Source of the DNA: Phycisphaerae bacterium
GTDB taxonomy: Bacteria > Planctomycetota > Phycisphaerae > Phycisphaerales > SM1A02
Length of the DNA: 64,000 nucleotides
Assembly: GCA_002709295.1 (NCBI GenBank)
Contig: PAQL01000008.1
Coordinates: 49,733-113,732, forward strand
Direction: 5' to 3'
In this document: positions 9,404 through 35,388 of the stretch, in pieces
Layout of the letters: every line of letters begins with the position of its first letter
Position numbering within the stretch: the first letter of the stretch is position 1
Translations under genes and position numbers: made by a program
The notes under the pieces: model-generated
The model's database searches: none
What the model was told of the DNA's origin: nothing
What the model saw: only the letters and a program-made list of their open reading frames with translations

Positions 9404-9988
9404 TCAGAACGCTTCGAGACGGGGCATGGCGGAACCGACCAGTCGGATGCGGCGGGCCCGGTCGCCCTCGATCTCGAGATCGATCACGTCATCGGGTTCG
9501 ACGCTGAGATCGATGGACGCCCGGTAGAGGCGTCGTCCCTGTTCGAACTCCAGAGTGAATGGTTCGAGCAGATTGCCCTGATCGTCCTCGGTGCCGACCA
9601 CGCCGTCGAGCAGCTCGACCGGAGCCCGGCCCTCGATCTGATAGGTCAGGACCTCGTTGGCCCGATCCCAGCGGATGGTGACCACCTCGTCCTCCTGGGT
9701 CCGGAACTCGATGTAGTCGGAGCGGATCCGGCTGACTCGCGGATCGGCGGGATAGGGGCCGAAATCGGTGCCGGTGCGCACCAGCGTGAGCATCCGGTGC
9801 ATGACGATTCTTCCGATCGACTGGGTCGAGACCTCCTCGGTCGTCGACTGGTACGCACGAATGCTCGCATCAAGCGCCACCAGGGTGGCGGTGAGCAGCG
9901 CCGCCGTGATCGCCATGGCGATCAGGACCTCGACGAGGTTGAAGCCTCGTCGTCGGGTGATCGATCGTCGGCGTCGTCTGTCGATCAT
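9404..9988 (-). CDS. PilW/GspJ-like minor pilin
   Basis: A 194-residue prepilin-like protein. After a basic leader it carries the type III signal-peptide motif RRRGFNLVEVLIA, to be cut by a prepilin peptidase after the Gly, with the conserved Glu at +5 and a hydrophobic helix. The rest is a beta-rich globular domain, as in PilW/GspJ minor pilins that prime pilus assembly. Its ATG overlaps the stop of the upstream PilX-like gene by four bases, so it is the last gene of the pilT-pilC-pilV-pilX-pilW unit. No prepilin peptidase gene is in the window. Confidence 0.82.
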   Translation of the reverse strand: MIDRRRRRSITRRRGFNLVEVLIAMAITAALLTATLVALDASIRAYQSTTEEVSTQSIGRIVMHRMLTLVRTGTDFGPYPADPRVSRIRSDYIEFRTQEDEVVTIRWDRANEVLTYQIEGRAPVELLDGVVGTEDDQGNLLEPFTLEFEQGRRLYRASIDLSVEPDDVIDLEIEGDRARRIRLVGSAMPRLEAF

Positions 9989-12372
9989 CGAATGCCCTCC
10001 CGATAGCTGGCCGCGACGGGTTCGGCGACGATCGGCCAGGGGATGCCGTCGGGAAGGACGACGTCCGGGTCGTATTCGAGGACGATCTCACCGAACCCGG
10101 TGAAGGACGGATCAAGGGGATCCGATCCCTCTCCGTCACCGTCGTCGGGACCGAAGTAGCCGATCGTGGTGTTGAAGGCGTCGGCCTGCCCGTCGTAGTA
10201 GAGGGGGCCTTGGCCGGGAATCGGCTGGAAGGTCATCAGCAGGGTGCCCTTGACCAGGGCCGTGCCCCGGACGTCGAGGATCCCGGCAACGATCACGCCG
10301 CGAAGATCGGCCCGAGGGGTCGCATCGAGGTCGCCCGCGTCGACCTCGTTGGTGAACGAACCCACGTCCACCGACCATCCCGGCATCATGATCGAACTCT
10401 TCTGCATCTCGACCAGCTGCTCGTCGGGGAGATCCTCGAGAAGCCCCTGAAGCTGCTCGCCATCGGGCTGGGCGAGGAGATCCTCGTCCGTGGGATCGCT
10501 GAAGAACCGGCTGGTACCGGTCACCTGGATCTTGTTCCGCCAGTGGGTGTATTCACCGGGGGTGTCGCCGGCGATCGATCCCAGGAAGGTGCAGTCCTCG
10601 AACCGGAGATTGTTGCTGAGCAGCTTGCTGTCCGGCACCTCGCCAAGCACCGGGTGGTTCGCGATCAGACCTTCGAAGCGGGTCCGGATCAGGAAGCCCT
10701 CGTCGGGGTCGGCATCCTCGAGGGCTCCCGCGTAGTTCCAGTTCGGATCGGTGCAGAGGGCCTCGGAACGGACGTAGGTCACCCCGACGAAGGTGCAGTC
10801 CTCGAACAGGGCGTTGGTCCCGACGGGGATCATCACGTTCTCGAATGTGATGCCACGGTAGATGGGACGAAGGTAGAGGTCGTAGGGGTTCGAGCTTCCC
10901 AGAGGAGTGGTCTCGTATCCGGGATGTTCGGGATCGTCGGGAAGGATCGCGGCACCACCGGCCGCGACTCCGGCGAGGACCTGCTGTTCGAAGTCATCAC
11001 CGGCATCAGCCACTTCCAGGAAGTATCCGGCGCTGTCGGCGAACATGTCCGTGGTGACCACGCGGAGGCTTTCGTCGTCGAGACCGAAGCTCATCGCGGC
11101 CTCGTCGACGTCGGTTCGCACGGATCCCCGCACGACCGTGCGGACGGAACCCCCGTGCTCCTCCTCCCACGAAGCCCGCTCGACCGCGAAGGCGAGCCTG
11201 CCCTGGACCTTGGCGTACCGGTCCCAGGAGTCGAGGATGCCGTCTCGATATCCGAGGGCGGTGTCGTCGTCGTCGATCACTCCGTCCTCGTTGCGGTCGG
11301 GCATCGCATTGTCGAGGAGATGAGCGAACTGATCGTCCACGCCCTCGAATTCCGAGGTGGCCCCACCCGAGAGTTCCGTGTCGTAGACGACGCCGCCGCT
11401 CTCGTCGAGATCGAAGGCGTCGAGGAACAGGTCGAACTCGTCGACGAACTCGTCACCGTCGAGATCGACGAAGTCGGGTTCGAGGTCGTCACCCTCGACG
11501 GGATGTCCCGGGCGGAGCCTTCCGTCGTCGTCGACGTCGTTGGCGACCACCAGTTCCTCGAAGCGGTCGAGGGCGTCATCGAGATCCGCGGAGAGCCATC
11601 GGATGTCGCTCCGCATGTCGAGGGGGTCGCCGTTTCCACCGTTCAGCTCGCCCGCGTTCTCTCCGTATCGCGTGCCGAGGGGGCCGATGATCATCACGTT
11701 CTTTCCGATCATGAGCCGGTTGGGACTGACGATCGCGTAATCGATCCTCTTGTCGAGTGCGACCTCGATCGAGAGGGTGCGTCGCACTTCGCGGTCCACG
11801 CCTTCGCTGATCACTCGAATGGCGTTCCGTTCGGGGATCGGTTCGTAGCGAAGACGGAACCACGCGGCATTCGCGTCGGGTGAGACGCGGATGGGCCGGA
11901 CATCGAGGGTGCCGTCTTCGGCGATGTCGGGAAGGCCGGCATCTCCGAGTTCGATCACCTCGGAGTGGTCTCCGGCGAGGTGCGCATCCCGGACCGCCTC
12001 CGCGATGCTGGCGGCGGGGGAGTCGACCACATACCCCTCCGGATCGAGGATCTCGACTGAACCCTGCTCGCCGACGTTCCAGCTGCCGTTCCAGAGGTCG
12101 GTCGCGAATTCGGCGTCGATCTCGCCCTTCATGACGACGAATCGACGTGCTTCACGTTCCAGCACCCAGGTTCCGTAGACCAGACCCGTCTCCGCTGCAC
12201 TGGTCGCCCGGCTCACCCGGAGGGAGACGTCCGCGGTGCGGAGGTTGCCGCTGGCCACGACCGCCATGGCGGCGGCCAGAGATCCGAAGATGACGAGGAA
12301 CATCATCGCGAGAACGCTGGCGACGCCTCGTCGATTCCGGGTCGTGACTTGCGTCGATCGCGACTGCTTCAT
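9985..12372 (-). CDS. Giant PilX-like minor pilin with EF-hand-like loops
   Basis: A 795-residue protein with a PilX-type N-terminus: NRRGVASVLAMMF and a transmembrane helix at about residues 17-40, without the Glu5 of ordinary pilins. PilX proteins are usually only about 160-200 residues. The start at 12372 is favoured by a GGAG 7 bases upstream. Residues 279-370 contain several EF-hand/dockerin-like calcium loops: DVDDDG at 279, a D-x-D-x-D...D..D loop at 303-314 and another at 359-370. The C-terminal half has repeated FEDCTF units suggesting a right-handed beta-helix. It lies between PilV-like and PilW-like genes. It probably is a pilus-tip or surface protein; the adhesin role is inferred. 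Confidence 0.72.
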   Translation of the reverse strand: MKQSRSTQVTTRNRRGVASVLAMMFLVIFGSLAAAMAVVASGNLRTADVSLRVSRATSAAETGLVYGTWVLEREARRFVVMKGEIDAEFATDLWNGSWNVGEQGSVEILDPEGYVVDSPAASIAEAVRDAHLAGDHSEVIELGDAGLPDIAEDGTLDVRPIRVSPDANAAWFRLRYEPIPERNAIRVISEGVDREVRRTLSIEVALDKRIDYAIVSPNRLMIGKNVMIIGPLGTRYGENAGELNGGNGDPLDMRSDIRWLSADLDDALDRFEELVVANDVDDDGRLRPGHPVEGDDLEPDFVDLDGDEFVDEFDLFLDAFDLDESGGVVYDTELSGGATSEFEGVDDQFAHLLDNAMPDRNEDGVIDDDDTALGYRDGILDSWDRYAKVQGRLAFAVERASWEEEHGGSVRTVVRGSVRTDVDEAAMSFGLDDESLRVVTTDMFADSAGYFLEVADAGDDFEQQVLAGVAAGGAAILPDDPEHPGYETTPLGSSNPYDLYLRPIYRGITFENVMIPVGTNALFEDCTFVGVTYVRSEALCTDPNWNYAGALEDADPDEGFLIRTRFEGLIANHPVLGEVPDSKLLSNNLRFEDCTFLGSIAGDTPGEYTHWRNKIQVTGTSRFFSDPTDEDLLAQPDGEQLQGLLEDLPDEQLVEMQKSSIMMPGWSVDVGSFTNEVDAGDLDATPRADLRGVIVAGILDVRGTALVKGTLLMTFQPIPGQGPLYYDGQADAFNTTIGYFGPDDGDGEGSDPLDPSFTGFGEIVLEYDPDVVLPDGIPWPIVAEPVAASYREGIR

Positions 12373-12449: not shown

Positions 12450-13007
12450 TCATCGGGGCTGGATCCATGTGAGACGCGTGATCTCGGAAGGTTCCAGATC
12501 GTCCGCGCCCTGGTATTCGACGAAGACGGTCACTCGAAGCATGTCGCTGGTGCCGTCGGGGACCGTGGTGTTCAGATCGAAGGGATCGACGTTCACCACC
12601 ACCGCTCGTTGCCGCCAACCCTCGAATCCCGGCAGGGTCTCGCGAAGGGCGTTGATGGGTCCGTTGCCGATGTCCGCACTGAAGACCGCGCCATCGAGGT
12701 CGTCGACGTCATCCCAGTCGACGAGATCCGGTTCCTCGGCCTCGGGTCCCCAGAACTCGACTCCGGTGACCGGGTCGTGGCGGGGGAGGTTGATGGCCAT
12801 CTCGCGGATCTCGCCGGCCAGCCGCATCGCGACCGCGGATTGCTGGGCCCAGTCGTTCTGTCTGTGGAAGGTCTGCTGCGCGAGGACGATCGCCAGAACA
12901 CCGGTTCCCACGATGACGGTGGCCAGTGCGGCCTCGATGAGTGTGAAGCCCCTTCTTCCGTCCCTCCGGAGGAGAGCATTCCGACGATGTGCGTGGATTC
13001 GATCCAT
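12450..13007 (-). CDS. PilV/GspI-like minor pilin
   Basis: A 185-residue prepilin. The leader MDRIHAHRRNALLRRDGRRG is followed by the processed N-terminus FTLIEAALATVIVGTGVLAI, with Glu at +5. PilV and GspI proteins show this FTLIEA form. The ATG at 13007 was chosen because a strong GGAGGAACC Shine-Dalgarno precedes it. It follows pilC by 26 bases and precedes the PilX-like gene by 77 bases in the same direction. The C-terminal domain is acidic and unrecognised. Likely a minor pilin that helps form the priming complex. Confidence 0.82.
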   Translation of the reverse strand: MDRIHAHRRNALLRRDGRRGFTLIEAALATVIVGTGVLAIVLAQQTFHRQNDWAQQSAVAMRLAGEIREMAINLPRHDPVTGVEFWGPEAEEPDLVDWDDVDDLDGAVFSADIGNGPINALRETLPGFEGWRQRAVVVNVDPFDLNTTVPDGTSDMLRVTVFVEYQGADDLEPSEITRLTWIQPR

Positions 13008-13033: not shown

Positions 13034-14257
13034 TCAGTTCGTCACGAGGCTGCTCATCTTGAAGATGGGCAGGATGATGGCCATGGCGATGAAACCGACG
13101 ACTGAACCCATGATCACGATCATGAGTGGTTCGATCATGCTGGTCACCGACTTGATCGCATCGCGAAGCAGTCGGTGGTAGTAGTCGGAGACCTCGTCGA
13201 GCACCTCGCCGAGCTTGCCCGAGTCCTCGCCCGCGGCGACCATCTGGACGACGCTGCGGGGGAGAAGGCTCGACTTGCCCAGTTGCGACTGGATCTTCCG
13301 CCCCTGTCGGACGGAGGAGTGGACGTTTCGCCACATCCGTCGGAACAGTCGGTTGCCGGAGATGTCGCCGGTGATCGCGAGCGTGTCGAGCATGGGGACG
13401 CCGGCGTTGAGCAGTTCGCCCATGGTGTGGAGGGAACGGCTGATGTAGAGGGCTCGGAACATCCTCCTGGCGATCGGCATCGAGAGCTTCAGGCGATCCC
13501 ACCAGAAGCCGCCGAGATCGGTCCGGATGAAAACGAGGAATCCGGCGATCAGTCCCGCGGCCGCGATCAGGATGACCCACCATGACTGAACCATGAAGTC
13601 CGAGACGGACATGAGGAACCTGGTCGGTCCGGGAAGAGCCTCCTCCTTGCCCTCGAACACGCCCGCGAAGCGGGGGAGGACGAAGGTGAGCAGGAACACC
13701 GTGACCCCGATCGCCATCGTGGCGATGATGCCGGGATAGATGCTGGCTCCGACGACCATCTTCCGGGTCTCCAGTTCCTGCTGGAGGTAGGCCGCGATCC
13801 GATCGAGCATGCGTGCGAAGGCACCACTCATCTCGGAGGCCCTCACCATGCTGATGTACAGCGGTCCGAAGAGCTTCGGATGCCTTGAGATCGCTTCGGA
13901 GAACTGACGGCCGCTCTCGATGTCGGCCTTGATCTCCTGGAGGATGGACTTGAACTTCGCGTTGGTGGTCTGCTCGGAGATCCCGTCAAGGGCCTGACGA
14001 ATGCTGATTCCGGCCCGGATCATGACCGCAAGCTGGGTCGTGAAGTCGAGGATGTCCTTCTTAGAGGGCCCGCTGGACCAGTTGAGGACGGAGGACAGGT
14101 TCCTGAGGCCTGAACCGCCGACCGCGGGTGCGAGCTGCATCACGTGCAGACCCTTCCCCCGGAGCATCGCCGCCGCGGTGGCGGCATCGACCGCCGCGAG
14201 CGCGCCGTCCTCGACGCCTCCGGTCCCGTTCCTTGCCTGGTAGCGATACTGCGGCAT
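13034..14257 (-). CDS. pilC: Type IV pilus inner-membrane platform protein PilC (GspF family)
   Basis: A 407-residue GspF/PilC-family protein, the polytopic platform that couples the assembly/retraction ATPases to pilin polymerisation. It starts with the family form YRYQARNGTG and has two homologous cytoplasmic helical domains (about residues 70-190 and 270-395). The FTTQLAVMIRAGISIRQAL segment marks the first. Three membrane helices lie at about 168-190, 220-240 and 375-397. It follows pilT by 19 bases and belongs to the same unit. A second, diverged GspF is encoded at 32491-33702, so the two systems have separate platforms. Confidence 0.92.
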   Translation of the reverse strand: MPQYRYQARNGTGGVEDGALAAVDAATAAAMLRGKGLHVMQLAPAVGGSGLRNLSSVLNWSSGPSKKDILDFTTQLAVMIRAGISIRQALDGISEQTTNAKFKSILQEIKADIESGRQFSEAISRHPKLFGPLYISMVRASEMSGAFARMLDRIAAYLQQELETRKMVVGASIYPGIIATMAIGVTVFLLTFVLPRFAGVFEGKEEALPGPTRFLMSVSDFMVQSWWVILIAAAGLIAGFLVFIRTDLGGFWWDRLKLSMPIARRMFRALYISRSLHTMGELLNAGVPMLDTLAITGDISGNRLFRRMWRNVHSSVRQGRKIQSQLGKSSLLPRSVVQMVAAGEDSGKLGEVLDEVSDYYHRLLRDAIKSVTSMIEPLMIVIMGSVVGFIAMAIILPIFKMSSLVTN

Positions 14258-14276: not shown

Positions 14277-15332
14277 TCAGGCGGCGATCATCCGTTCGAT
14301 CTTCTCGGGGTGGGCGGACTGGGCGATCGCATCCTCGCGGCTGATCATGCCGTTGAAGAACAGCTCGGCGATCGCGTTGTCGAGACTGATCATGCCCAGC
14401 TGGCGATTCGTCTCGATGACGTTCGGAATCTCGAAGGTCCGGGCCTCCCGGATGATGTTCCGGACGGCCGGGGTGCAGAGCATGATCTCGATGGCGGGAA
14501 CCATGCCGGGCCGGTCGATGCGGCTGAACAGCGTCTGGCTGACGACGGCTTCGAGGGTGTTCGCCAGCATGGAGCGGATCTGGTTCTGCTGTCCCGCGGG
14601 ATACATGTCGATGATCCGCTCGACGGTCTGAGAAGCGTCGACGGTGTGCAGGGTCGAAAGCACCAGGTGTCCCGTCTCCGCTGCGCTGATCGCGAGAGCG
14701 GTGGTCTCCAGATCCCGCATCTCGCCGACGAGGATGATGTCCGGGTCCTGTCGGAGCGCGTGCTTGAGGCCGCTTGAGAAGCTCGGCATGTCCGAACCGA
14801 GCTCTCGCTGTTCGATCAGCGACTTGTCGCTCTCGAACACGTACTCGACCGGATCCTCGAGGGTCATGATGTGCTTGCGATACCGCTCGTTCATCGCCTG
14901 GATCATGGCGGCGAGGGTGGTCGACTTGCCCGACCCCGTGTCTCCGGTCACGAGCACCAGCCCGCGGGGGAGATAGGTGAGGCGGGAGATCACTTCGGGA
15001 AGGTTCAGTTCAGCGAGCGGTGGGACCGAGGTCTTGATGCCTCGAAGGGCCATGGCGACCTTGCCCTTCTGCATGTGGGCGTTGACGCGGTAGCGTTGAA
15101 GCTCTGCGACCTCGTAGGAGAAGTCGAGATCCGACTGATCGTCGAAGGTGGCGAGCTGGGCCGGGCTGACCATCTGCTCGAGGGCTCGTCGAAGGCCGTC
15201 TCCGGTCAGGGCGGGGCATTCCATCGGCTGCATGACCGTGTGCACCCGCATCATGGGCGGATGATCCGCCACCAGATGGATGTCGGACGCGTCATGCTCG
15301 AACGCCTGTCGAAGAATGTCGTTGAGATGCAT
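14277..15332 (-). CDS. pilT: Type IV pilus retraction ATPase PilT
   Basis: Hexameric secretion ATPase of the PilT group, driving pilus retraction. The protein is 351 residues from the ATG at 15332, which has GGAG 10 bases upstream. Walker A GDTGSGKST is at residues 130-138. The Asp box TLEDPVEYV, Walker B DIILVGEMRD and His box STLHTVDA follow. The tail lacks the tetracysteine zinc motif of GspE/PilB, which supports PilT. Its neighbours are PilC and three minor pilins. The partner PilB ATPase is not in this unit; the only extension-type ATPase seen here is GspE at 33709-35388. Confidence 0.93.
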   Translation of the reverse strand: MHLNDILRQAFEHDASDIHLVADHPPMMRVHTVMQPMECPALTGDGLRRALEQMVSPAQLATFDDQSDLDFSYEVAELQRYRVNAHMQKGKVAMALRGIKTSVPPLAELNLPEVISRLTYLPRGLVLVTGDTGSGKSTTLAAMIQAMNERYRKHIMTLEDPVEYVFESDKSLIEQRELGSDMPSFSSGLKHALRQDPDIILVGEMRDLETTALAISAAETGHLVLSTLHTVDASQTVERIIDMYPAGQQNQIRSMLANTLEAVVSQTLFSRIDRPGMVPAIEIMLCTPAVRNIIREARTFEIPNVIETNRQLGMISLDNAIAELFFNGMISREDAIAQSAHPEKIERMIAA

Positions 15333-20842: not shown

Positions 20843-22039
20843 TCATGACGCCTCTTCGGACTCCTCGGGAAGCTCGCCGATCATCACTTCGTACCGCCCG
20901 GCGTTCGGTCTCAGCAGGATGAACCGTGACGACCCTTCGGTCTCCCCGATTCTTCGTGGAATCGCGGTCTCTTCCGCCAGATTGAGCGAGGAGGGAGGGC
21001 GTCCGATGCCGTCCGAGAGGCGAACAAGCTCGATTCCCGACCGGGTGGCGGCGATCGCGGAGTCGTCATCGAGCATCGTCGCGTTGATCGTTCCTTCCGG
21101 GAACGGTCGTGCGAGGTCGTTTTCCGGGCTCCACTCCACGAGGCGACCGAGATCCGGGTGAAGAAAGACGATCCTCGCACGGGAGCCGGGGGGTGATGCG
21201 GTACCGACCTGTGGGGCGAGCATCGCATGAACCCGGCGGGGCGTGGTCCGGATCGAGATCGGATGAGTGCTGATCCCGTCACGAAACCGTGATTCATCCG
21301 TGGTTCGCGTCCAGGCCATCTCCACGGTTCCGTCTCCGCGACAGAGGGCGAAGAGCGTTCTGCCGTCGGGGGCGAGGACCGGATCGATCCATGAACGTTC
21401 CCATCGGCTCGGCACGACCCAGGTACCCGAACCGTCTCCCCGGCGAAGCACGAGTTCGAAGGCCCGGTCGTCGAGGCCTCGTCGACTGTAGGCAAGGTCG
21501 CCTCCCGGGCCGATGTCGGCGAAAGCGGCGACGTCACCATCGTCCACGAGCCAGGTCACGTCGCCGGATCGCCAGTCGACCCTGCCGATCCGACGCGCCC
21601 CACCCTGGAGTGGCTCCTCGACGAGGAATCCCTGCTCATCGGCGTTGCGGCCCAGCAGCCAGGGACCGCGGACCTGCTTGTGGGTCCTAAGGCCGCTTGA
21701 ATCATCGACTTCGTGAATCGTGAAGGTCGCGGTCGGGATCGGCGTGCTTCCCGGCTCCGCAAGGACCTCCTCCCATCCGGGGGGGGCTCCCGACCGGGAG
21801 ACGAGCCAGGTTCCGTCCGGGGAGAGAAGTGGAATGGTGAAGTCGTCGTACTCGACGAGTCCCAACGAGTTCCAGCGAAACCGCGCTCCGCGATCCCCGG
21901 TGTTGGAAGCCTCCCGGGAGGCGGGGTCCGGGAGGATGAAGCGGGAGGAGCGACGATCCACTCGTTCACTGACGCAGCCCGCGAGGATCAGGGCGAGCGC
22001 CGTCGACCAGGTCGTCGTCAGCAGTCTTCCCGCGATCAC
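20843..22039 (-). CDS. TolB-like beta-propeller lipoprotein at the end of the secretion operon
   Basis: A 398-residue predicted lipoprotein with the lipobox LAGC near residue 22. The mature protein has repeated propeller-like blades (LSPDGTWLVSRSG, LAPDGRTLFALCRGDG) of the WD40/TolB type. The GTG start at 22039 overlaps the gspD stop by four bases (GTGA). This makes it the last translationally coupled gene of the T2SS-like operon. An outer-membrane accessory role, such as secretin pilotin or assembly factor, is possible from context but not shown by sequence. Confidence 0.7.
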   Translation of the reverse strand: MIAGRLLTTTWSTALALILAGCVSERVDRRSSRFILPDPASREASNTGDRGARFRWNSLGLVEYDDFTIPLLSPDGTWLVSRSGAPPGWEEVLAEPGSTPIPTATFTIHEVDDSSGLRTHKQVRGPWLLGRNADEQGFLVEEPLQGGARRIGRVDWRSGDVTWLVDDGDVAAFADIGPGGDLAYSRRGLDDRAFELVLRRGDGSGTWVVPSRWERSWIDPVLAPDGRTLFALCRGDGTVEMAWTRTTDESRFRDGISTHPISIRTTPRRVHAMLAPQVGTASPPGSRARIVFLHPDLGRLVEWSPENDLARPFPEGTINATMLDDDSAIAATRSGIELVRLSDGIGRPPSSLNLAEETAIPRRIGETEGSSRFILLRPNAGRYEVMIGELPEESEEAS

Positions 22040-24621
22040 TCGTCGGTCTTCTCCTCCGCGGCGCCGTTGCTGCCGTCTTCGTCCTCCTCGTCCTCCATGC
22101 GATCGAAGAAGGTGGTGCCGACGAGATCCGCGGCCATGTCGTCGAGGGGCTTGCTCAGCTCCTCGAGTCGGCGGACATCCTCGGCGTTGAAGTTCTCGTC
22201 GTTCTCGTCGGGATTGTCGACAACGATCGGGGTGACGAAGATGACGAGCTCCGAGAGCTGCTTCTGCTTCTCGGTGCTGGTGAAGAGGGCTCCGAGTCCG
22301 GGGATGTCGCCCAGAAGCGGCACCTTGCGGACGACGTCCTGGTCGTCCTCCTTGCGGATGCCGCTGATCACGATCGTCTGGTTGTTCTTGACCGTCACGC
22401 TGGTGGTGGTCTGTCGACGGTTGACGATCGGGTTCTGGTTGATCGAGGCGGTCGCGAGGGTCGAGAGGAGGACCTCGACCTCGAGCGCCACGTTGCGTTC
22501 CTTGGTGATGCGGGGCCGCACGTTCAGACCGATGCCGATCGCCTCCTGTTCGAAGGCGGTGGTGGTTCCGGAATCGTTGGTGGTGCTCCCGGTCTGGAAG
22601 GTCACGTCCTGGCCGGAGAAGAACTTGGCCTCGCGGTTGTCGCTGGTGAAGACCCGCGGTCTCTGGAGGATTCTGACGTTGTTCGCCTCACTCAGGGCGG
22701 AGATGACCCAGTCGACGTTCGTGTTCACATCGAGGACCGAGGTGTCGAACCACGGCGATGCGAAGTTCTCGCCACCGACGCCGCCCTCGTCGCCCTTGGC
22801 GAGATCGAGTCCGAGGGAGCCCTGGATGATGTTGTCGCCGGAGGTCTTGCCCGTCAGACCGGAACCGATTCGGACACCGAGAGTCAGACCGTCTCCGAGT
22901 GTCACCTCCGCGAGCGTGGTCGTGATCATGACCTGACGGCCGGGACGGTCGAGGTCCTCGATGATGCCGAGCAGCGCCTCCTGGATCTCGGGCGTCGCGA
23001 GCACCAGAAGCGAGTTCTGGCCGGGGTTCGGGACCACTCGGCTCTTGCCCACCAGTGCCGACACCTCCGCCGCCTCGTCGCCCTGGCCGCCACGGCCGGA
23101 CTGCCAGGGGAAGGTGATCTCCTCGCTCTGCTGACCGTCGTTGGTGCCACCACCCTCGCCGCCACCGGCGCTGGCGAAGTCGATGCCGCTGAGGCCTTCT
23201 TCGGGAAGCCGGATGCCTCGCCCACCGCCACCCGCCTGGGCGAGCAGGGTGTTGAGGATGTCCGCGACGTCGATGGCGCTGGCGTGCTTGAGCTCGACGT
23301 TCACCGGCAGGCCGACGCTCAGAGGCTGGTCGATCTGCTCGATCATGCCGTCGAGCCAGTCGAAGTTGTCGGGCGTCTTGGAGATCACGATCAGGCGGTT
23401 GGAGTCGGGGTACGCCTCGATCCGGAAGATGTCGGCGACCGCCGCGTCCGCTCCACTGGCGGCCGCATTGCCTCCGGTTCTGCCGCTGGGACGGTTGTTT
23501 CCGCCTCCGCCGGTCTCCAGCAGGGTGGCAAGGAGGTTCTTGACCTTGACCGGGTCGGTGTAGCGGAGGTCGTACAGCCGGAAGATGTTCCCTTCGCGGC
23601 TCGGGGGGATGTCCCACGCGGTGTCGATCAGGAATCGGATGTCGTTCAGAATCTCCGGCTCCGCCCGCACCGTGACCGAGTTGGTCTGCGGGAGGACGCT
23701 GACCTGAAGCTGTTCGCTGGTGCCGACCTGGGGGAGTTCCTGGTTCTGTGACGCCTGCGGGGTCCGTCCACGGGTCTGCGTGGTCCGCGTGGTTCGAGAG
23801 GTCCGGCTTCCGGATGCGTTGGGATTCGGACTGAAGAGCTCGAGCACGATGTCCGCGATGGTCTGGGCATCGGCATAGGCGAGTCGGAACGTCTCGGTCT
23901 TCACCGCGAGGAACGGCTGGACGTCGAGAAGGTCGAGGAGCCGCTGGACCCGCTTGGCCCAGGCGACGTCGCCCTCGATGATCAGCTGGTTGGAGTTCAC
24001 GTCCGAGGTGATGTTCGCGTAGGTGGGACGAGTCCCCTCGATCTGGCCTTCGATGTCGGCGGCCTTGGCGTACTTCAGACGGAAGACCTTGGTGACGATC
24101 TGGCCGTCCTCGTCGAGCTGGGAGACATCGACCTCGGGGCCGAGGATGAGACCGGGCTGGAGGTTGGTGAGTTCTCCGGTCAGGGAGTCGATCATGACCA
24201 TGTCGGCCGTCTCGACCACGCCGATGCCGTTGAGCCTGAATGCCTGGAAGATGAGGTTCAACGCCTCGTGCTTGGTGACGAGCCGCTCGCTCTGGATCGA
24301 GATCTTTCCGGCTCCGGCACCGATCGCCTGGGCGCGGTTGATCACGGCCTTGCCGGTGTAGTCGACGATCAGCGGAATGAAGTCGTCGACCGTTCGATCC
24401 TTGAAGTTGATCGGAACGAGTTCGTCATCCAGCTCCGGGCGGGTGCCCGTGAGTCCGTTCCCGTTGGCTTCCTGCGCGGTTCGCGAGGGGCTGACCGGAG
24501 CCGCGGCTCCGTCCCGATCGGGGGCGCCGTCGTCCTGGGCATGCGACATGGCCGTGAGGACCAGCAGCATGCAGGTGGTGACGAAGAGGTGAAGGGCCCG
24601 GTAGGTCGTTCGAGTGTTCAC
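22036..24621 (-). CDS. gspD: Secretin GspD (type II secretion outer-membrane channel)
   Basis: Outer-membrane secretin of 861 residues from a GTG at 24621. That start has GAGG 8 bases upstream and gives a clean signal peptide (about residues 1-29, ending SHAQ). An ATG at 24708 or 24705 is an alternative and would overlap the previous gene by about 10 bases. The N0-type domain (VPINFKDRTVDDFIPLI) comes first. The N1-N3 repeats follow, with TSDVNSNQLIIEGD, an NNRPSGRTGG linker and YPDSNRLIVISKT. The C-terminal secretin domain contains VPNPGQNSLLVLATP and VPLLGDIPGLGALFTS. A glycine-rich insert (about residues 480-510) lies in the N3 region. Confidence 0.93.
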   Translation of the reverse strand: MNTRTTYRALHLFVTTCMLLVLTAMSHAQDDGAPDRDGAAAPVSPSRTAQEANGNGLTGTRPELDDELVPINFKDRTVDDFIPLIVDYTGKAVINRAQAIGAGAGKISIQSERLVTKHEALNLIFQAFRLNGIGVVETADMVMIDSLTGELTNLQPGLILGPEVDVSQLDEDGQIVTKVFRLKYAKAADIEGQIEGTRPTYANITSDVNSNQLIIEGDVAWAKRVQRLLDLLDVQPFLAVKTETFRLAYADAQTIADIVLELFSPNPNASGSRTSRTTRTTQTRGRTPQASQNQELPQVGTSEQLQVSVLPQTNSVTVRAEPEILNDIRFLIDTAWDIPPSREGNIFRLYDLRYTDPVKVKNLLATLLETGGGGNNRPSGRTGGNAAASGADAAVADIFRIEAYPDSNRLIVISKTPDNFDWLDGMIEQIDQPLSVGLPVNVELKHASAIDVADILNTLLAQAGGGGRGIRLPEEGLSGIDFASAGGGEGGGTNDGQQSEEITFPWQSGRGGQGDEAAEVSALVGKSRVVPNPGQNSLLVLATPEIQEALLGIIEDLDRPGRQVMITTTLAEVTLGDGLTLGVRIGSGLTGKTSGDNIIQGSLGLDLAKGDEGGVGGENFASPWFDTSVLDVNTNVDWVISALSEANNVRILQRPRVFTSDNREAKFFSGQDVTFQTGSTTNDSGTTTAFEQEAIGIGLNVRPRITKERNVALEVEVLLSTLATASINQNPIVNRRQTTTSVTVKNNQTIVISGIRKEDDQDVVRKVPLLGDIPGLGALFTSTEKQKQLSELVIFVTPIVVDNPDENDENFNAEDVRRLEELSKPLDDMAADLVGTTFFDRMEDEEDEDGSNGAAEEKTDE

Positions 24622-24697
24622 GCGAGATCCTCGGGTCGACGCCGTCGGCGTCTCGGGTCGGTGTTCCGGTCTGTTTCGTCGGATTTCGAAGTCGATT

Positions 24698-25822
24698 TCA
24701 GCCATCATTCGACTGCCCCCTCAAGATGTCGTTGATCAATCGCAGCTCTGTTTCGAGGCCGTCTCGCATCTCATCGCCCAGTTCGGGTCGGTTGAGAATC
24801 TCGGTCAGCTGGTAGTGCCTGGATTCCAGCTGGGCGTTGCTCATGTTGCGGAGGGTCTCCGCGAGGTTCGGGGAGACGTCCTCGTCGGAGAGGGGTTCCT
24901 CGTCGACGCCGCCGTCGTCGTCGATCGGCGGGACCATGTCGTCCGGTGCCTCGCCCATCTCGATGACCTGCGATTCATCGATGCGCTGGAACACCGCCCG
25001 GCCGTCGATCTCGCCCCGAACGACCATCGATCTGCCCTTGCCGTCTCCGCCTCGCCCCAGATACTGGATGCGACCGAAGATGGTCCGGTCCTCTCCCCGG
25101 TCGTTGAACGTCACCTTCACGGCCGAGCCGCGCTGGGGCGACCAGGGTTCGCTCACCGCCGCCGGTGCGGTCGATGCGACCGACTCCGACGGTTCAGACG
25201 GTTCAGACGGTTCCGGTTCCCCGGCCCCTTCGGGAGCCTTGCCGAGAACGCCGGGATCGATCGAGTCCGAGAAGGGCTTGAAGATCGTGGAGAAGTCGTC
25301 ATCGAGGAAGTTGACTTCGTAGGTTCCACCCTTGTGTCCGAGGCGGACGGCGGTGGGACCGATGATCGCGAGGACCTTGACGCCGTTCTTCTCCTGCCCG
25401 AGGGGGATCTGGTCGTTCGATCCGAAGAACACGAGGGTTCCGGCCACTCCGGTGGGTGCCGGTCCCGTGTAGGTGCTCGGGGGTCCCGGGTCGACCTTCG
25501 GTGGTTCCGGACGTGGCTCCGGCTTCGGCCTCTCCGGGCGAGGCTTCGGAGCCGCGGGTCGCGTCTGCGGACGGCCGGGCACCACGAACGGCGATCGCCC
25601 GAGGAACCGGCGGGAGCTCACCTCGGCCTGCCGATCGTGAGCCTGTTCCAGCGATGCGAAGATGTCGTCGTCGTTTCCGTCCCAGGAGGGGGAGGAGATC
25701 GCACCGATCAGGGTCGGGATCCCGGTGGCGAGGACCACCCCGGCGATGCCGATGGCGAGAACGCTCGTCACGAGCGGTCCCGACCAGCGATGGGTGCCGA
25801 GCCTGCTGCGAAGATCACTCAT
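24698..25822 (-). CDS. PilP/GspC-like inner-membrane clamp protein (tentative)
   Basis: A 374-residue protein with one N-terminal membrane helix (about residues 16-38), then a proline- and charge-rich linker (about 75-115) of the kind that crosses the periplasm. A small beta domain (TLVFFGSNDQIPLG, VKVLAIIGPTAVRLG) follows. This layout fits GspC or PilP, which connect the inner-membrane platform to the secretin. The sequence itself is not clearly either, so the call rests on architecture and position just before gspD. The ATG at 25822 overlaps the previous stop by four bases. The C-terminus is helical and acidic. Confidence 0.55.
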   Translation of the reverse strand: MSDLRSRLGTHRWSGPLVTSVLAIGIAGVVLATGIPTLIGAISSPSWDGNDDDIFASLEQAHDRQAEVSSRRFLGRSPFVVPGRPQTRPAAPKPRPERPKPEPRPEPPKVDPGPPSTYTGPAPTGVAGTLVFFGSNDQIPLGQEKNGVKVLAIIGPTAVRLGHKGGTYEVNFLDDDFSTIFKPFSDSIDPGVLGKAPEGAGEPEPSEPSEPSESVASTAPAAVSEPWSPQRGSAVKVTFNDRGEDRTIFGRIQYLGRGGDGKGRSMVVRGEIDGRAVFQRIDESQVIEMGEAPDDMVPPIDDDGGVDEEPLSDEDVSPNLAETLRNMSNAQLESRHYQLTEILNRPELGDEMRDGLETELRLINDILRGQSNDG

Positions 25823-26442
25823 GAGCGACCTCCCCGGGTCGGGACGACCCACGCTTCGATCGACAGGGTGACCTCCAGCTGGGGTCCGTCGTCGATGCGT
25901 TCGAGACGAAGGGACGAGATCGATTCGATCTCGGGTTCCGCTTCGAGTTCACGGATCACGTTGATGAGCGTGTCCGGGGTGGTCTTGAAGTCCAGCTCGC
26001 AGACCAGACGCTGGACCCGTCCGCCGGCGACCTCGCTGATCGGGCTGGCGCTGGCGAGCCGACTTCCCGTTCTTGCATCGATCTTGGGGACGATTCCGTT
26101 GCCCTCGAGGATCGTGCCCACCGTCTCCTCGAGTCGGGTCGCGCCGGGCGAGGCCGATCGAGGCACCTCGATGGGGCCGAGCGCGGTCGCCACGATCTGG
26201 ATCTTGCGATCGATGGTGGCTTCCAGATTCTGGCTCTGATCGATGATCCTGGAGATCCGGTCGGATTCCTCGTTCCATGCATCCGCGGTGGGCCAGACGT
26301 AGTCGTCCGCCACGAGGAAGACCAGTGCGATGACCGCCGCCGTCACGGCGAAGCGCCAGATGGCGGGCAGGGCCAGGAACCGGTCCACGAGATCTGACTT
26401 CGAGCTCTCGGAGCTTTCGGGGGTGTTCATCGCATCACTCAC
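25819..26442 (-). CDS. PilO/GspM-like inner-membrane protein
   Basis: A 207-residue bitopic protein: one helix (about residues 30-50), a coiled-coil stretch (DRISRIIDQSQNLEATIDRK) and a ferredoxin-like periplasmic domain. The domain has an LVCELDFKTTPDTLINVIRE pattern, as in PilO/GspM. It starts with GTG at 26442, overlapping the upstream PilM/N fusion stop by four bases, and its own stop overlaps the next start. The GspL-GspM or PilN-PilO pair forms the inner-membrane alignment complex, and this arrangement matches it. Confidence 0.68.
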   Translation of the reverse strand: MSDAMNTPESSESSKSDLVDRFLALPAIWRFAVTAAVIALVFLVADDYVWPTADAWNEESDRISRIIDQSQNLEATIDRKIQIVATALGPIEVPRSASPGATRLEETVGTILEGNGIVPKIDARTGSRLASASPISEVAGGRVQRLVCELDFKTTPDTLINVIRELEAEPEIESISSLRLERIDDGPQLEVTLSIEAWVVPTRGGRS

Positions 26443-28457
26443 GGGTTCGTCTCCCGGATGCGGTTCAGCAGGGAGTCCCACTCGTCCTTGAGGGCCTTCT
26501 TCTGTTCCTCGGTCGCGTTCGGAGCATTTCGGGCGCCGGCGATCTTGGCGAGTCGGGCCTTCGCCTCCGCGTTGCTGAGGGTCTCGATCTCCTCGGAGCT
26601 CAGGGGTTCCGGAATCTCGATGACCCGGGAACGGATCGAACTTCGGGAGGCCGGTCCGTCCGAGGACCCGCCCTCTCTCGAGCTCTCGCGATCCCGACCG
26701 CTGCTGGAGGCTCGGTCTCGGGAACGGGTCGATTCACGGGACGGCTCCCGGGAGGTCCGGGCATCCGCGATGTCGGTCTCGGTCTCCTCGCTCGAGGCCC
26801 GGCTCGAACTCGAGGAGGTTCGCTCGGAAGGCGGCGTCGAGGATCCGGCATCGGCGCGTGATGAGGATGGTGCCTCGGAAGAGGAGGAGGGGGCCGCCTC
26901 CATCGCGGGCAGCGGCTTGCTGAGGTCGATTCCCCGCGCGATCATCGCGTCGAGTCGTTCCTGCCGGGCATCGGGATCGACGATCAGGTAGCCGTCGTCA
27001 TCGACCGGGCCGTAGCGGCGATCCCGGTAGGACAGGACGGCGTAGTCGTTCTCGGGTCTCGGCTGCACCGGTCGGAGGGGGTCGTCGAGCACCGCGGTGA
27101 GCTTGAACTCCGTGTAGCCGCGGGCATCCGGTTGTTCGATCGAGGGCACGGGGCCGTAGTCGAGGAAGAGCTTGCTTTCCCGAAGCCTTCGGTTGAAGTC
27201 GAAGACGATGTCCGTTCCGCTCATGTCCGCATCGCGCTTGGCCACGCCCATGACGGTGATGGGTTCGCCGTGGGTCAGGGTCATCGAGAGCAGTTCGATC
27301 TGCTCGGGCATCAGGTTGGACACGTCACCGAGCAGCTTGGTGATCGACCACGCCTGGCGGTCGAGCTCCCGGTAGACCTTCTCGAGATTCTCCACCCGAC
27401 GGACTCGTTCCTCGAGGGAGGCGAGGTCGTCGACCTTGCTCCTCATGATCATCAATCGGATTCCCGAGAACGCCAGCGGGGAGAGGATCATCATGATCAG
27501 GGCGAAGGTGGCGATCGCGACGGCGGTCCGGCCATCCGAGAGTCGATGGGTCATCGCTCCCAGGAAGCTCGGCTTCTCGAAGTGCTCGTGTCGCCGAAGC
27601 CCGGCGAGATCGGCATTGTCGCCACGGGATGCGGCCAGGGCACCGAGCAGGAGTCTGGCCGATGCGGCATCGATCCCGCTGAACCGGGTGATGTCCTGAT
27701 CGACCAGCTGATCGACTCCCGATTCGTCATCGGTGGGGATAAGCAGGGCGCCATCGATCAGTCGCCCGTCGATGCCGCTCAGAAGCGATCTCACCGACTG
27801 CTCGACCGTCGAGGGATCGATGTCCTCACCAAGGAGGGATTCCGCCACGAGGGGGCGGAGTCGATCCTCGGGCGAGGTCGAGGGGATTCCACGGGTGGCT
27901 CGGTAGACGGGCCCCTTGGGGGTCGGAACCACCGCGGCGGTCGAGCCGTCACCATCGATGACGGCGGCCAGGCTCGTGGGGGTGTCTCCGGCCAGGATGG
28001 CGAGGCAGGCGATCTCCGGGATCCAGGTCACGTCGATCTCGGGGGCGAGCTCGGGCAGCCCCGGATCGAGACCGTCGGGCCAGGAGACGATGAGACCGGT
28101 GGGGGTGGGCCCCTCGATTCCAATGAGCCCGAGACCGCTTCGGTGGGCTGAAGCGGAGCCCAGCAGCCTTGATTCCGCCTCGATTCGGATCGCTGATTCG
28201 ACCTGGAGGGTGCCTCCGGAGGGGACATGGACGGTCCTCACCAGGGTCGCCGTGGAGGGCAGGATCGCCAGAACTCGGCCGCAGCGGGCGTCCAGAATCC
28301 GGGATTCCAGCCCCTCCGGGGGGCATGTGAACTCCTCCACGACCCGGGAAGGGGTTCTGGAGCCCTGCTCCTGGACCAGGAGGACGCAGACATCGTCTCC
28401 CCGTCGGCGACAGAGGGCGATGAGATCGGGTTCAAGCTCGGTTCTGCGACGTGCCAT
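26439..28457 (-). CDS. PilM-PilN (GspL-type) fusion protein with Ser/Arg-rich linker
   Basis: A 672-residue protein. Residues 1-300 have an actin-like PilM/GspL pattern, a cytoplasmic nucleotide-binding fold. A membrane helix at about 317-338 and a coiled coil (about 340-375) with a ferredoxin-like PilN domain (about 375-460) follow. After residue 500 comes a 90-residue Ser/Arg/Glu-rich low-complexity stretch, then a helical C-terminal segment (SSEEIETLSNAEAKARLAKI). GspL is naturally a PilM+PilN fusion, so the N-terminal 460 residues match GspL. The low-complexity extension is not part of that family. The gene sits between gspK and the PilO-like gene. Confidence 0.68.
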   Translation of the reverse strand: MARRRTELEPDLIALCRRRGDDVCVLLVQEQGSRTPSRVVEEFTCPPEGLESRILDARCGRVLAILPSTATLVRTVHVPSGGTLQVESAIRIEAESRLLGSASAHRSGLGLIGIEGPTPTGLIVSWPDGLDPGLPELAPEIDVTWIPEIACLAILAGDTPTSLAAVIDGDGSTAAVVPTPKGPVYRATRGIPSTSPEDRLRPLVAESLLGEDIDPSTVEQSVRSLLSGIDGRLIDGALLIPTDDESGVDQLVDQDITRFSGIDAASARLLLGALAASRGDNADLAGLRRHEHFEKPSFLGAMTHRLSDGRTAVAIATFALIMMILSPLAFSGIRLMIMRSKVDDLASLEERVRRVENLEKVYRELDRQAWSITKLLGDVSNLMPEQIELLSMTLTHGEPITVMGVAKRDADMSGTDIVFDFNRRLRESKLFLDYGPVPSIEQPDARGYTEFKLTAVLDDPLRPVQPRPENDYAVLSYRDRRYGPVDDDGYLIVDPDARQERLDAMIARGIDLSKPLPAMEAAPSSSSEAPSSSRADAGSSTPPSERTSSSSSRASSEETETDIADARTSREPSRESTRSRDRASSSGRDRESSREGGSSDGPASRSSIRSRVIEIPEPLSSEEIETLSNAEAKARLAKIAGARNAPNATEEQKKALKDEWDSLLNRIRETNP

Positions 28458-28529
28458 CGTGGTCCTGAGGATCCGAAACGGTGTGAGCCTTCGCTGATCG
28501 AGCCCCGCCCGACCAGAGACCGGCCCTCA

Positions 28530-29963
28530 CTACTCCTCGCGATAGGCGAGAATTCGGACCGGCAGGGATGAACGATCGAGAACGACGTGGATTTCCACTT
28601 CCTGCCCGTTCTCCGAGGTTCCTCGGCTGCAGACCGAGAACGTCCAGCCTGTGACGTCCAATTGGGAGGAAAGTCCGGAAAGTGTCTCCGGCTGGACCCT
28701 TCGCACGTCGAGGAGGTCCACGATACTCGTGATTCCCTCGGCTCGCGACTGCCTCAGAGCCATGATCGAGTCGGCCACGCCGGAGTCACCCTCGAACATG
28801 ATTCGAAGGACCTCCGGACCGGCGGTGTTCAGATTGATCTTCCCGGGGGGGAGGTAGGGGCCGGAAAAATCGGTCAGGGTGCATTCGGCGAAGACGGCGG
28901 CGAGCTGCTCCTTGGAGAGGGGGGTGACCGGTTCCGGTTCGTTGCTGTTGTTCCGGCTGAAGGACCGGCCCGTCGATCGACCGGAGCTCGAACTGGGGGC
29001 TCCGACGAGTTCTCCGAGTTCGACCGCCAGGAGGGCTCCCAGGGTGGCGTTCTCCGAGCTTCCGTACTCGACGAGGGCCTCGGCCTGTCGTTCATCGACC
29101 GGAAGCACGTCCAGGAGGTCATCCACCGAGGCGGCCCGGAGATCGATCCGGGGGTATCCGGAAAGCCCCAGCGGAGAGTCCACCGACCTCGCGGTCAGAT
29201 AGCCCGCCCATCCGGGATCGAGCTCCCCGTCGCGGTCATCGCTCGGGGCGGCGGTGTCTCCGTCGTTCTCGTTGGGATCGAGGCGGTCGTTGAGGTTCCA
29301 GTCCTCGCCACGCACGTATTCGGGCCATGCTCCCGCCACGAGCTCGAGTTCGGCGATCGATCGGATCCGACCGTTTCTGGGCAGGTAACCCATGTCCCGG
29401 CCCTCGTAGAAGTCGGCTTCGGCGCCGATTCCCTGCACTTCATCGTCTTCGTCGATCCAGTCGAGGATCGCATCGGCGGTGTCGAGCGAGATGTCGGGCA
29501 GTTCGAGGAGCTGCAGCTTGGTGGCGGAATTGATGTTGAGCCGCGAGTGAAGATCCAGGGGGCCCTTGAGTTCGAGGCCCTCCTCGACATGACGTATGTC
29601 CCAGGCCCCGGTGTCGACGTTGCCGGCCCAGTCGTACTCGAGGTCTCGAAAGAGCGCCATGGGATCGTCGGGATCGGCGTTCTCCGTATTCCAGGCGAGG
29701 GTGGCGATCACCCTTTCGACCCCGGCCCGAGCCGCCCAGCGGGCCTGAACCCGGCCGATGGTGGCCCGACCGAGCGTGGCGGTCCGCCAGGTCACCAGCT
29801 GGGTCGCAGCCACGATGATCGCCGCGATCGCGATCGACCAGAGGACCACGATGGTCGCGGATCCCCGATGCGGTCGCGTGGCATGCCTGCTCAGCAGTTG
29901 TTTCATCGTGGTCGGCATGTGTGGTTGTGCGATGCGTTCGGAGGAGTCGCCCCTCAACGTCAT
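28530..29963 (-). CDS. gspK: General secretion pathway protein K (GspK)
   Basis: GspK is the large minor pseudopilin that caps the T2SS pseudopilus tip. This 477-residue protein has a basic leader and the GspK-type N-terminus (RGSATIVVLWSIAIA, without Glu5). Two helix-hairpin-helix/SAM-like parts follow (LHSRLNINSATKLQLLELPD and INLNTAGPEVLRIMF), which are characteristic of GspK. It is longer than the usual 310-340 residues because of an acidic insert around residues 215-250. The ATG at 29963 overlaps the gspJ stop by one base (TGATG). A later ATG (MKQLLS) is a possible alternative start. Confidence 0.88.
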   Translation of the reverse strand: MTLRGDSSERIAQPHMPTTMKQLLSRHATRPHRGSATIVVLWSIAIAAIIVAATQLVTWRTATLGRATIGRVQARWAARAGVERVIATLAWNTENADPDDPMALFRDLEYDWAGNVDTGAWDIRHVEEGLELKGPLDLHSRLNINSATKLQLLELPDISLDTADAILDWIDEDDEVQGIGAEADFYEGRDMGYLPRNGRIRSIAELELVAGAWPEYVRGEDWNLNDRLDPNENDGDTAAPSDDRDGELDPGWAGYLTARSVDSPLGLSGYPRIDLRAASVDDLLDVLPVDERQAEALVEYGSSENATLGALLAVELGELVGAPSSSSGRSTGRSFSRNNSNEPEPVTPLSKEQLAAVFAECTLTDFSGPYLPPGKINLNTAGPEVLRIMFEGDSGVADSIMALRQSRAEGITSIVDLLDVRRVQPETLSGLSSQLDVTGWTFSVCSRGTSENGQEVEIHVVLDRSSLPVRILAYREE

Positions 29964-31000
29964 CAGTCGAAGGTGCGGGCTCCGCCGGAGGAACTGCCGG
30001 CGCCGCTCTTGCCGCCGGTACTGTTCGTGGCCTCGAAGTTGCCCGGTCGTCCGCCACCGGATCCGGGTCGTCCGCCTCCGCCGAAGCCTCGACCGCCGGT
30101 GCTTCCGCCGCGACCACCGCTTCCGCCACGACTGCCGACGCCACCGGGAGCACGAATGCCGCCGGGGCCGCCGTCCTTGCCGCCGAATCCGCCCGCTCCG
30201 GCTCCGCCGGCGCCACCAGCGCCACCGACGCCGTCCTCGTCACCTTCGCCCATGGCACCCATCCCTTCCTCGTCCTCCTCGTCGGGTTCGACGTAGGGCG
30301 GGATGATCCGATCGATGGAGACATGGGTGCGCAGCACGACGAGGGTCTTCGGATCGATCTCCTCGAGGTCGCCCCGGGGGTTTCCAAGGCTGATCACCTC
30401 GACGCGGAAGCCCCAGGGCAGGCCGTCGACATCGGAGTCCCACTCCTCGAACCAGTCCTGGCCGTCGTAGGCCATGATGTCGATGCCGATCACGCCCTCC
30501 GCGATCGGTGTCGCGACGCCGCCGCCGTCCGGCCAGTCGTCGGGCACGGGATCACGCCGTTCCCAGAGCGCCACGCCGAACTGGTCCTCGTCGATTCTGA
30601 ACTGGGTCTCGTACTCGCCGCCTTCGCCGTTGTAGTCGATCTCGCCCAGAGGCTGGAGTCGGGTGTTGAAGACCAGCACCTCGTCACGGCCGACGTCGAT
30701 CCGCTCGCCGTCGGCGACCACGATCGATGAACCGTCGTAGAGCAGTACTCTGGAGTGGAAGAGATCGGCGTCCCGGAGCACGGACGTCAGATCACCTCGG
30801 ATCGCATCCAGTGCGGCATCGGCGCGCAGATGGGCCAGAAGTCTCGCACGTGAGACCTCCCTCGCCCGGCCGATCTGGGAGAGCGTCACCACGACGGTCA
30901 CCAGGACCATCGCGGCGATCATGCCCGCGAGCAGAAGCTCGACGAGGGTGAATCCCCGTCGCGGTGTCCTGCGTCGATCAGAAGCCATAGATCTCTTCAT
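29963..31000 (-). CDS. gspJ: GspJ-like pseudopilin with glycine-rich C-terminal tail
   Basis: A 345-residue prepilin-like protein. The leader MKRSMASDRRRTPRRG is followed by FTLVELLLAGMIAAMVLV with Glu at +5, then the beta-rich GspJ domain (about residues 20-245). From about residue 255 on, a 90-residue glycine-rich tail (GGAGGAGGAGAGGFGGKDGG and similar repeats) is appended. Ordinary GspJ is about 200 residues and has no such tail. The start at 31000 has a GAGAGG Shine-Dalgarno; the inner ATG at 30988 is an alternative. It overlaps both neighbours. Confidence 0.82.
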   Translation of the reverse strand: MKRSMASDRRRTPRRGFTLVELLLAGMIAAMVLVTVVVTLSQIGRAREVSRARLLAHLRADAALDAIRGDLTSVLRDADLFHSRVLLYDGSSIVVADGERIDVGRDEVLVFNTRLQPLGEIDYNGEGGEYETQFRIDEDQFGVALWERRDPVPDDWPDGGGVATPIAEGVIGIDIMAYDGQDWFEEWDSDVDGLPWGFRVEVISLGNPRGDLEEIDPKTLVVLRTHVSIDRIIPPYVEPDEEDEEGMGAMGEGDEDGVGGAGGAGGAGAGGFGGKDGGPGGIRAPGGVGSRGGSGGRGGSTGGRGFGGGGRPGSGGGRPGNFEATNSTGGKSGAGSSSGGARTFD

Positions 31001-31442
31001 AACGAGCCTCTCGATCAATCGGTTCCTCGGGGTAGCGGACGGGATCCGGCTCCTCCCCGAGCTTGGCGGCGATCAGCGTCTCACAACGATACGAGCGGCC
31101 GGTCAGGTGAGTCACCTCGACCGAGACCGAATACGGTTCCCCCTCGCCGGGGTCCTGTATGTTGACCCGATACTCGAACTGTTCATAGGGAAATTCCCCC
31201 TGTCCGCTCACCGGGTGCAGGTCCGGATAGTCCGCAGGGCCCTCCAGAAGGACCATGGACAGGATGTTGTCCATCATTCCTGCGGCCATCACCTCGATCT
31301 CGCCCCTCCGCTGAAGGTCGAGGGAGCGGCTGGTAAGCATGAAGATCATCGTCAGGCCGATGGCGAGGACCACGCCGGCGATGATGGCATCGACCAGTGC
31401 GAAGCCGCTGCGACGTCGGGATGATCCCTTCGAGGTGCTCAT
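30978..31442 (-). CDS. gspI: GspI-like pseudopilin
   Basis: A 154-residue pseudopilin. The leader is followed by the cleavage site SG/FALVDAIIAGVVLAIGLTMIF. The residue at +5 is Asp rather than the usual Glu, a conservative but uncommon change. The ATG at 31442 overlaps the stop of the previous gene (TGATG); a GTG at 31445 also reads in frame. Position between GspH-like and GspJ-like genes fits GspI. GspI, J and K form the pseudopilus tip. Confidence 0.8.
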   Translation of the reverse strand: MSTSKGSSRRRSGFALVDAIIAGVVLAIGLTMIFMLTSRSLDLQRRGEIEVMAAGMMDNILSMVLLEGPADYPDLHPVSGQGEFPYEQFEYRVNIQDPGEGEPYSVSVEVTHLTGRSYRCETLIAAKLGEEPDPVRYPEEPIDREARYEEIYGF

Positions 31443-32014
31443 CACCAGCTCTCCCGATCCGCGCCCATCTCGTCGAGATCGGCGGCCTCGCGGATGGTCG
31501 GCGCCGTGGGGTCTCCGTCACGAATGATCTGAGGACCGAGGCCGTGCGAGGTCAGCACGATGTCGGCTCCTTCACCTCCCTCGCTCTCGAGACGGAGCCT
31601 GAGGTCGGGGCGCTTTCCTCCGGGCAGGGAGGAGACGAACCAGTCGCGAGGATCCAGAAGAGCGCCGTCCGCGGTGACTCGCGTGAACACGATGTCCTCG
31701 GGGAGGATGATCGACGGTGCCATCGTCATCGGATTCCACTCACCGTCCTCGCCGAGGACCAGCACGTCGACGCGACCGTTGGATTCCAGATGGGCGATCG
31801 CCACCACGCGTTCGTCCGTGGCCTCCTGGAAGGCGAAGGCCGCGACCGCCGAGGCCACGCCCTCGGTCGTGGTCATGAACCTGCCCTTGTTGACGCCGAC
31901 CATTCTCGGAACCGCGATCGTTCCGATCACCAGAAGCAGCGCCGCGACGAGGATCACCTCGAGAAGGGTGAAGCCTCGCCGGGTCGCGATTCGGTTTGTG
32001 GACCGGAGTTCCAG
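31442..32014 (-). CDS. gspH: GspH-like pseudopilin, start codon apparently CTG
   Basis: The prepilin motif TRRGFTLLEVILVAALLLV is clearly encoded, but no ATG, GTG or TTG precedes it in frame before the upstream stop codon. The first conventional start is the GTG at 31957, which is inside the motif (after Glu5) and would destroy the leader. A CTG at 32014, 13 bases after the gspG stop, gives a 13-residue basic leader before the cleavage Gly; ATC codons are also present. From CTG the protein is 190 residues, with a beta-rich C-terminal domain. Order in the operon fits GspH, the minor pseudopilin next to GspG. Confidence 0.72.
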   Translation of the reverse strand: MELRSTNRIATRRGFTLLEVILVAALLLVIGTIAVPRMVGVNKGRFMTTTEGVASAVAAFAFQEATDERVVAIAHLESNGRVDVLVLGEDGEWNPMTMAPSIILPEDIVFTRVTADGALLDPRDWFVSSLPGGKRPDLRLRLESEGGEGADIVLTSHGLGPQIIRDGDPTAPTIREAADLDEMGADRESW

Positions 32015-32027
32015 AGGTCGATTCCGT

Positions 32028-32447: not shown

Positions 32448-32490
32448 TGATCTTTTCCAGAGAGGTGCGTGACTTCGTCGGTCACGATGT

Positions 32491-33702: not shown

Positions 33703-33708
33703 GCTTGA

Positions 33709-35388
<1,680 letters not shown>

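Follow-up and report, generated by a model that had tools for sequence, protein, structure and literature searches.

Locus and Gene Order

The window is a stretch of 64,000 nucleotides from contig PAQL01000008.1 of a Phycisphaerae bacterium, and all genes described here lie on its minus strand. A giant minor pilin is encoded at 9985..12372, with an ATG at 12372, a stop at 9985 and the 795 residues given in the original prediction. It is part of a type IV pilus operon. Before it, in the direction of reading, come a PilT-type retraction ATPase (14277..15323; TIGR01420, 440 bits with a cut-off of 319), a PilC/GspF platform protein (13034..14257; PF00482, E 2.5e-59) and a PilV/GspI-like minor pilin (12450..13007; TIGR02523, E 5.5e-5, which is under the cut-off of that model). 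It is followed by a PilW/GspJ-like minor pilin (9404..9988; N_methyl above cut-off, TIGR02532), whose gene overlaps that of the giant pilin by 4 bases. Gene order was compared in 28 loci, of which L037 and L053 start within the giant pilin gene and L039 within the PilV-like gene. The order T-C-V-X-W, where X is the giant pilin, was present in 25/25 loci with sufficient flank.

Both neighboring minor pilins carry Glu at mature position 5. In the giant pilin this position is Leu21, and Glu was absent there from all 68 family members whose sequence covers the column. The subunit without Glu5 caps the tip complex, as set out in a review (PMC10191384). Going by gene order and sequence, the giant pilin is most likely a K-type tip cap, itself lacking Glu5 and flanked by I and J type subunits that have it.

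A second, separate cluster of type II secretion type lies near the pilus operon, at about 20843-35388 or, more narrowly bounded, 22036-35388. It includes a secretin, a GspK-like protein with HHH (gene at 28530-29963), a platform protein and a GspE with an MshEN domain, along with several large ORFs without a Pfam match at E up to 0.001. In the whole genome 15 secretion/pilus ATPase family matches and 37 prepilin N-terminal motif matches were obtained at E up to 1, a predicted type IV filament gene set of large size.

Predicted Fold of the Giant Pilin

The protein begins with a prepilin-type N-terminal hydrophobic helix, recognized from the sequence (residues 16-75; 12148..12327). The AlphaFold2 model and structure alignment place the start of a beta-solenoid at residues 209-251 (11620..11748). 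An inserted module bearing the calcium-type loops follows (residues 252-394; 11191..11619); it is missing in distant homologues. The remaining solenoid and its helices occupy residues 395-770 (10063..11190), and the ice-binding-protein fold was aligned over residues 209-770. The last strand in the predicted secondary structure (residues 779-785; 10018..10038) would be the final strand of the pilin sheet by analogy with ComZ (PMC6561018). The protein is very acidic, with 152 Asp+Glu to 59 Lys+Arg and only 9 Lys.

No Pfam or NCBIfam family matched the giant pilin at E up to 1, T2SSK models included. The PilY1 C-terminal beta-propeller PF05567 and PilX_N were likewise without a match in it, and PilX_N was absent from the 7 Pfam families found across 28 members. 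The protein had been described as a PilX-like minor pilin. Minor pilin stands; PilX was a loose label and is unsupported because the protein matches none of the Pfam or NCBIfam models. A tip subunit of the GspK/ComZ type is what the predicted structure and the gene order indicate.

The AlphaFold2 model, built with 28 sequences, had a mean pLDDT of 87.4 and a pTM of 0.84, with the blocks of the module mostly at about 90; its N-terminal 40 residues are unreliable. At E up to 1e-3, a Foldseek search of the PDB with the whole model matched only three chains, each of them from ComZ (E 2.9e-5). In VIA-align the whole model aligned to ice-binding proteins with Z 12.7 over 196 residues (rmsd 3.4) and to ComZ with Z 11.8 over 367 residues (rmsd 12.4), the next row standing at 7.0. 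The rmsd of 12.4 indicates that the domain angles of the model and of ComZ differ. A family missing from the VIA lists was not counted as evidence. A profile of the whole pilin family, run against PDB sequences, gave 3 matches at E up to 1 (best 0.25), none of which was ComZ.

Calcium-Type Loops

The module carries four EF-hand-like loops and one half-loop. Loop A (residues 279-293; 11494..11538) has Asp at positions 1, 3 and 5 within DVDDDG at residue 279, His at position 12 and an invariant E293. Loop B (residues 303-314; 11431..11466; DLDGDEFVDEFD) is canonical and leads into a helix that reaches residue 320. Loop C (residues 321-332; 11377..11412) has ligands at positions 1, 3 and 5, starting with DLDESG at residue 321; its position 12 is unconserved and lacks an acid. 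Loops B and C are 18 residues apart with the helix between them. Loop D (residues 359-370; 11263..11298; DRNEDGVIDDDD) is again canonical. Half-loop E (residues 373-384; 11221..11256) consists of positions 5, 9 and 12 only, which are D377, D381 and D384. Loops B and D have Asp/Asn at positions 1, 3, 5, 9 and 12, that is, the full oxygen-ligand pattern of a 12-residue EF-hand loop.

The original prediction had placed two canonical loops at 303-314 and 359-370, with partial ones in addition, at 11250-11550, which corresponds to residues about 275-374. Both canonical loops are present there with the Asp/Asn residues named, and the partial ones are those at 279 and 321. That prediction had overlooked the conserved half-loop at 377-384, as well as the presence of the module throughout the family.

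A loose 12-residue loop pattern matched twice in residues 275-390 and nowhere else in the protein. The loop region is Asp-rich (25 Asp per 92 residues), and shuffling residues 275-390 gave at least two such loops in 23/20,000 trials, so that chance composition was rejected as their source. A strict PROSITE-type EF-hand pattern (PS00018, with a hydrophobic residue at position 13) had no match in the giant pilin itself. No Pfam family matched its own module at E up to 0.1.

Structure prediction had been proposed as a check on the acidic residues. They lie in a confident loop-and-helix module, which reached a pLDDT of 88.2 when modeled alone and in which some loops are flanked by helices. All 50 of the 50 Foldseek matches listed for the module were EF-hand proteins or EF-hand fusions; these matches were weak (best E 0.31), as were the structural alignments, with Z at most 4.1 over 60 residues.

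Conservation and Distribution in Homologues

The pilin family was found in 50/61 genomes, including that of the organism itself. A set of 29 homologue loci came mostly from Phycisphaerales, Phycisphaerae or other planctomycetes. Wider searches matched 116/248 genomes of the class, many of these matches being partial, and 20/294 genomes of a draw from the phylum. Removing 7 duplicates and 2 short fragments reduced the proteins of 79 matched loci to 70, which were aligned. Conservation was measured on the 66 rows left when near-identical rows were removed.

The loose loop pattern occurred 1.66 times per protein across the 70 homologues compared to 0.028 in shuffled sequences, and the strict pattern 0.67 times compared to 0.007. 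At least one loose match was present in 66/70 proteins and at least two in 50/70. The complete ligand set was present in 64/70 homologues for loop B and in 60/70 for loop D. In the 66 non-redundant homologues the mean conservation of the 16 ligand columns was 0.87, and none of 20,000 random draws of 16 region columns equaled it; the remaining columns of the region averaged 0.56. Asp residues in the loops had a conservation of 0.89, and those lying outside residues 275-390 (n = 64) a mean of 0.50. By column, D279, D283 and E293 of loop A were present in 66/66, with position 281 being Asp in 56 and Asn in 9. In loop B, D303 and D314 were present in 66/66 and position 307 was Asp in 58 and Asn in 8. 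D359 and D370 of loop D were present in 63/66 and 57/66, respectively, and half-loop E had D384 in 66/66 and Asp at 377 in 59/66.

A distant set was hand-picked for spread from 20 of the 116 matching class genomes; the 20 loci gave 21 proteins. Nine of these kept loops B and C, with A and D unrecognizable. Within this group the pattern matched at both loops in seven proteins and at one only in two. The other 12 kept the pilin and the solenoid, and unrelated sequence replaced the module; one degenerate loose-pattern match was found in 4/12 and DxDxDG in none. In the loop-less proteins of loci L094-L104 the replacing stretch is a different insert in the same place, with a common motif like DENGNPMFDEYGNRIYS-DD; it is this motif that matches a degenerate loop pattern in the 4/12. 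Conservation of the loops, which had also been proposed as a check, held in the 66 homologues, and only more distant class members lack them. This absence is a clade-wise gain or loss.

A FastTree phylogeny was constructed from 91 proteins and 518 columns, with residues 235-480 excluded and midpoint rooting. The 12 loop-less proteins formed a clade (local support 1.0), as did the nine with loops B and C (0.999) and nine three-loop proteins (0.974). All proteins with loops A to C clustered together (0.999). The four-loop node, with L061 (degenerate loops) counted in its group, had a support of just 0.144. Stepwise accretion of loops, from B and C to A and then D, fits the midpoint-rooted tree; loss in the opposite direction is also compatible with it.

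In genome G025 a second copy of the pilin (L062) is missing the pilin helix. It has an apparent signal peptide and dockerin-like repeats, GDTDASGWVDIEDFL and GDVNGDGYVNIEDLL, followed by the usual body. This paralogue is possibly a pilin turned secreted protein.

Proposed Function and Comparison With Known Systems

The loops, their conservation, the predicted fold and the operon were established by computation, and from them we infer calcium binding, a position at the tip and adhesion. In the reading that we consider probable, the giant pilin is the Glu5-less K-type tip subunit of a type IV pilus driven by the PilT motor. It would have a ComZ-like modular architecture, a pilin stalk and a sheet bearing a large beta-solenoid, with the four loops and the half-loop inserted at an early turn of the solenoid (residues about 252-394). 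The extracellular loops would bind several Ca2+ ions, and the module would thereby be folded and stiffened. Jutting from the tip, it would form the face that contacts a ligand, probably in adhesion.

ComZ of Thermus thermophilus (PDB 6qvi) is the best fold match of the predicted model. In its GspK-like pilin fold, an inserted ice-binding-protein-like solenoid separates the final two strands, and the two proteins share a large beta-solenoid within a pilin fold. It binds DNA, and its authors argue for a location at the tip (PMC6561018). In contrast to ComZ, to which its sequence similarity is undetectable, the giant pilin is about 240 residues longer, is very acidic and bears the loop module; calcium has 0 occurrences in the main text of the ComZ paper (PMC6561018). 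In the main rival to an adhesin, the protein would, like ComZ, sit at the tip of a competence pilus and serve as its DNA receptor, and the calcium loops would stabilize it or bridge DNA phosphates. The one solved structure matched significantly, ComZ, is DNA-binding (PMC6561018), a PilT motor is encoded in the operon and ComEC-type genes are found in the same genome. However, the ComEC-type matches carry little weight because the family also matched 10/14 controls, the strongly acidic surface is poor for DNA and the PDB sequence-profile matches did not include ComZ. A DNA receptor is unlikely.

A true dockerin, tethering a partner with a cohesin to the pilus tip, is less likely still. Pfam Dockerin_1 weakly matched 12 of 28 module sequences (best 1.5e-5), and the spacing of loops B and C with their intervening helix would suit a dockerin. 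However, EF-hand_7 matched more of these sequences and matched them better (20/28, best E 8.8e-7). A cohesin was found in 9/61 genomes compared to the pilin in 50/61, and a dockerin-cohesin pairing is unsupported in the organism itself, whose genome gave no cohesin match. Of the original description of the loops as EF-hand or dockerin-like, EF-hand-like is retained, and the dockerin part is probably a resemblance in sequence only. A disordered or charge-rich acidic spacer, in which composition alone produced the loop patterns, would agree with the high Asp content and is hardly credible, as shuffles nearly never yield the loops, the ligand columns are conserved and the module is modeled at high confidence.

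For the tip adhesin preferred here, calcium in a tip pilin is already known from the GspK/XcpX precedent. XcpX, of the GspK type, has two canonical calcium sites and a third, with a Kd of 26 uM by ITC (PMC6211770). The role of a calcium-binding tip cap alongside I and J type subunits is a feature of GspK/XcpX and a prediction for the giant pilin. They differ in that the extra domain of GspK is described as alpha-helical and the giant pilin has no T2SSK match. PilY1, whose role at the pilus tip depends on calcium, has an EF-hand-like Dx[DN]xDGxxD loop (PMC8833165). The PilY1/PilC proteins share an EF-hand-like calcium-type loop with the giant pilin; PilY1, however, is a beta-propeller protein and not a pilin. 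PilY1-family searches gave no match in the organism's own genome and 0/199 in a wider set, and these do not establish absence because no control gave any match. PilY1 model matches were obtained in 2/61 genomes, one above the cut-off, so the model can give a match within the group. PilB of Streptococcus sanguinis is a modular pilin that likewise displays a foreign module, in its case a vWA domain at the C-terminus (PMC8179133); the module of the giant pilin is instead an insert inside the solenoid. No published account of the giant pilin was found by title or abstract start in the open-licence literature.

Surface waters are usually rich in calcium. For this reason we think that calcium is mainly a permanent structural ion here rather than a switch; a calcium-switched adhesin would be plausible. 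A further scenario, conceivable but doubtful, is that in Phycisphaerae, with hardly any recognizable PilY1, the tip pilin became a calcium-dependent adhesin. Its module would have been built within a ComZ-like solenoid, starting with loops B and C, followed by A and finally D, and calcium loading would license pilus assembly or adhesion.

If the preferred reading is true, this tip pilin would unite an EF-hand-like module and a beta-solenoid of the ComZ kind, in a group with hardly any recognizable PilY1. Homologues with no, two, three or four loops would then form a natural series for the stepwise study of calcium at the pilus tip.
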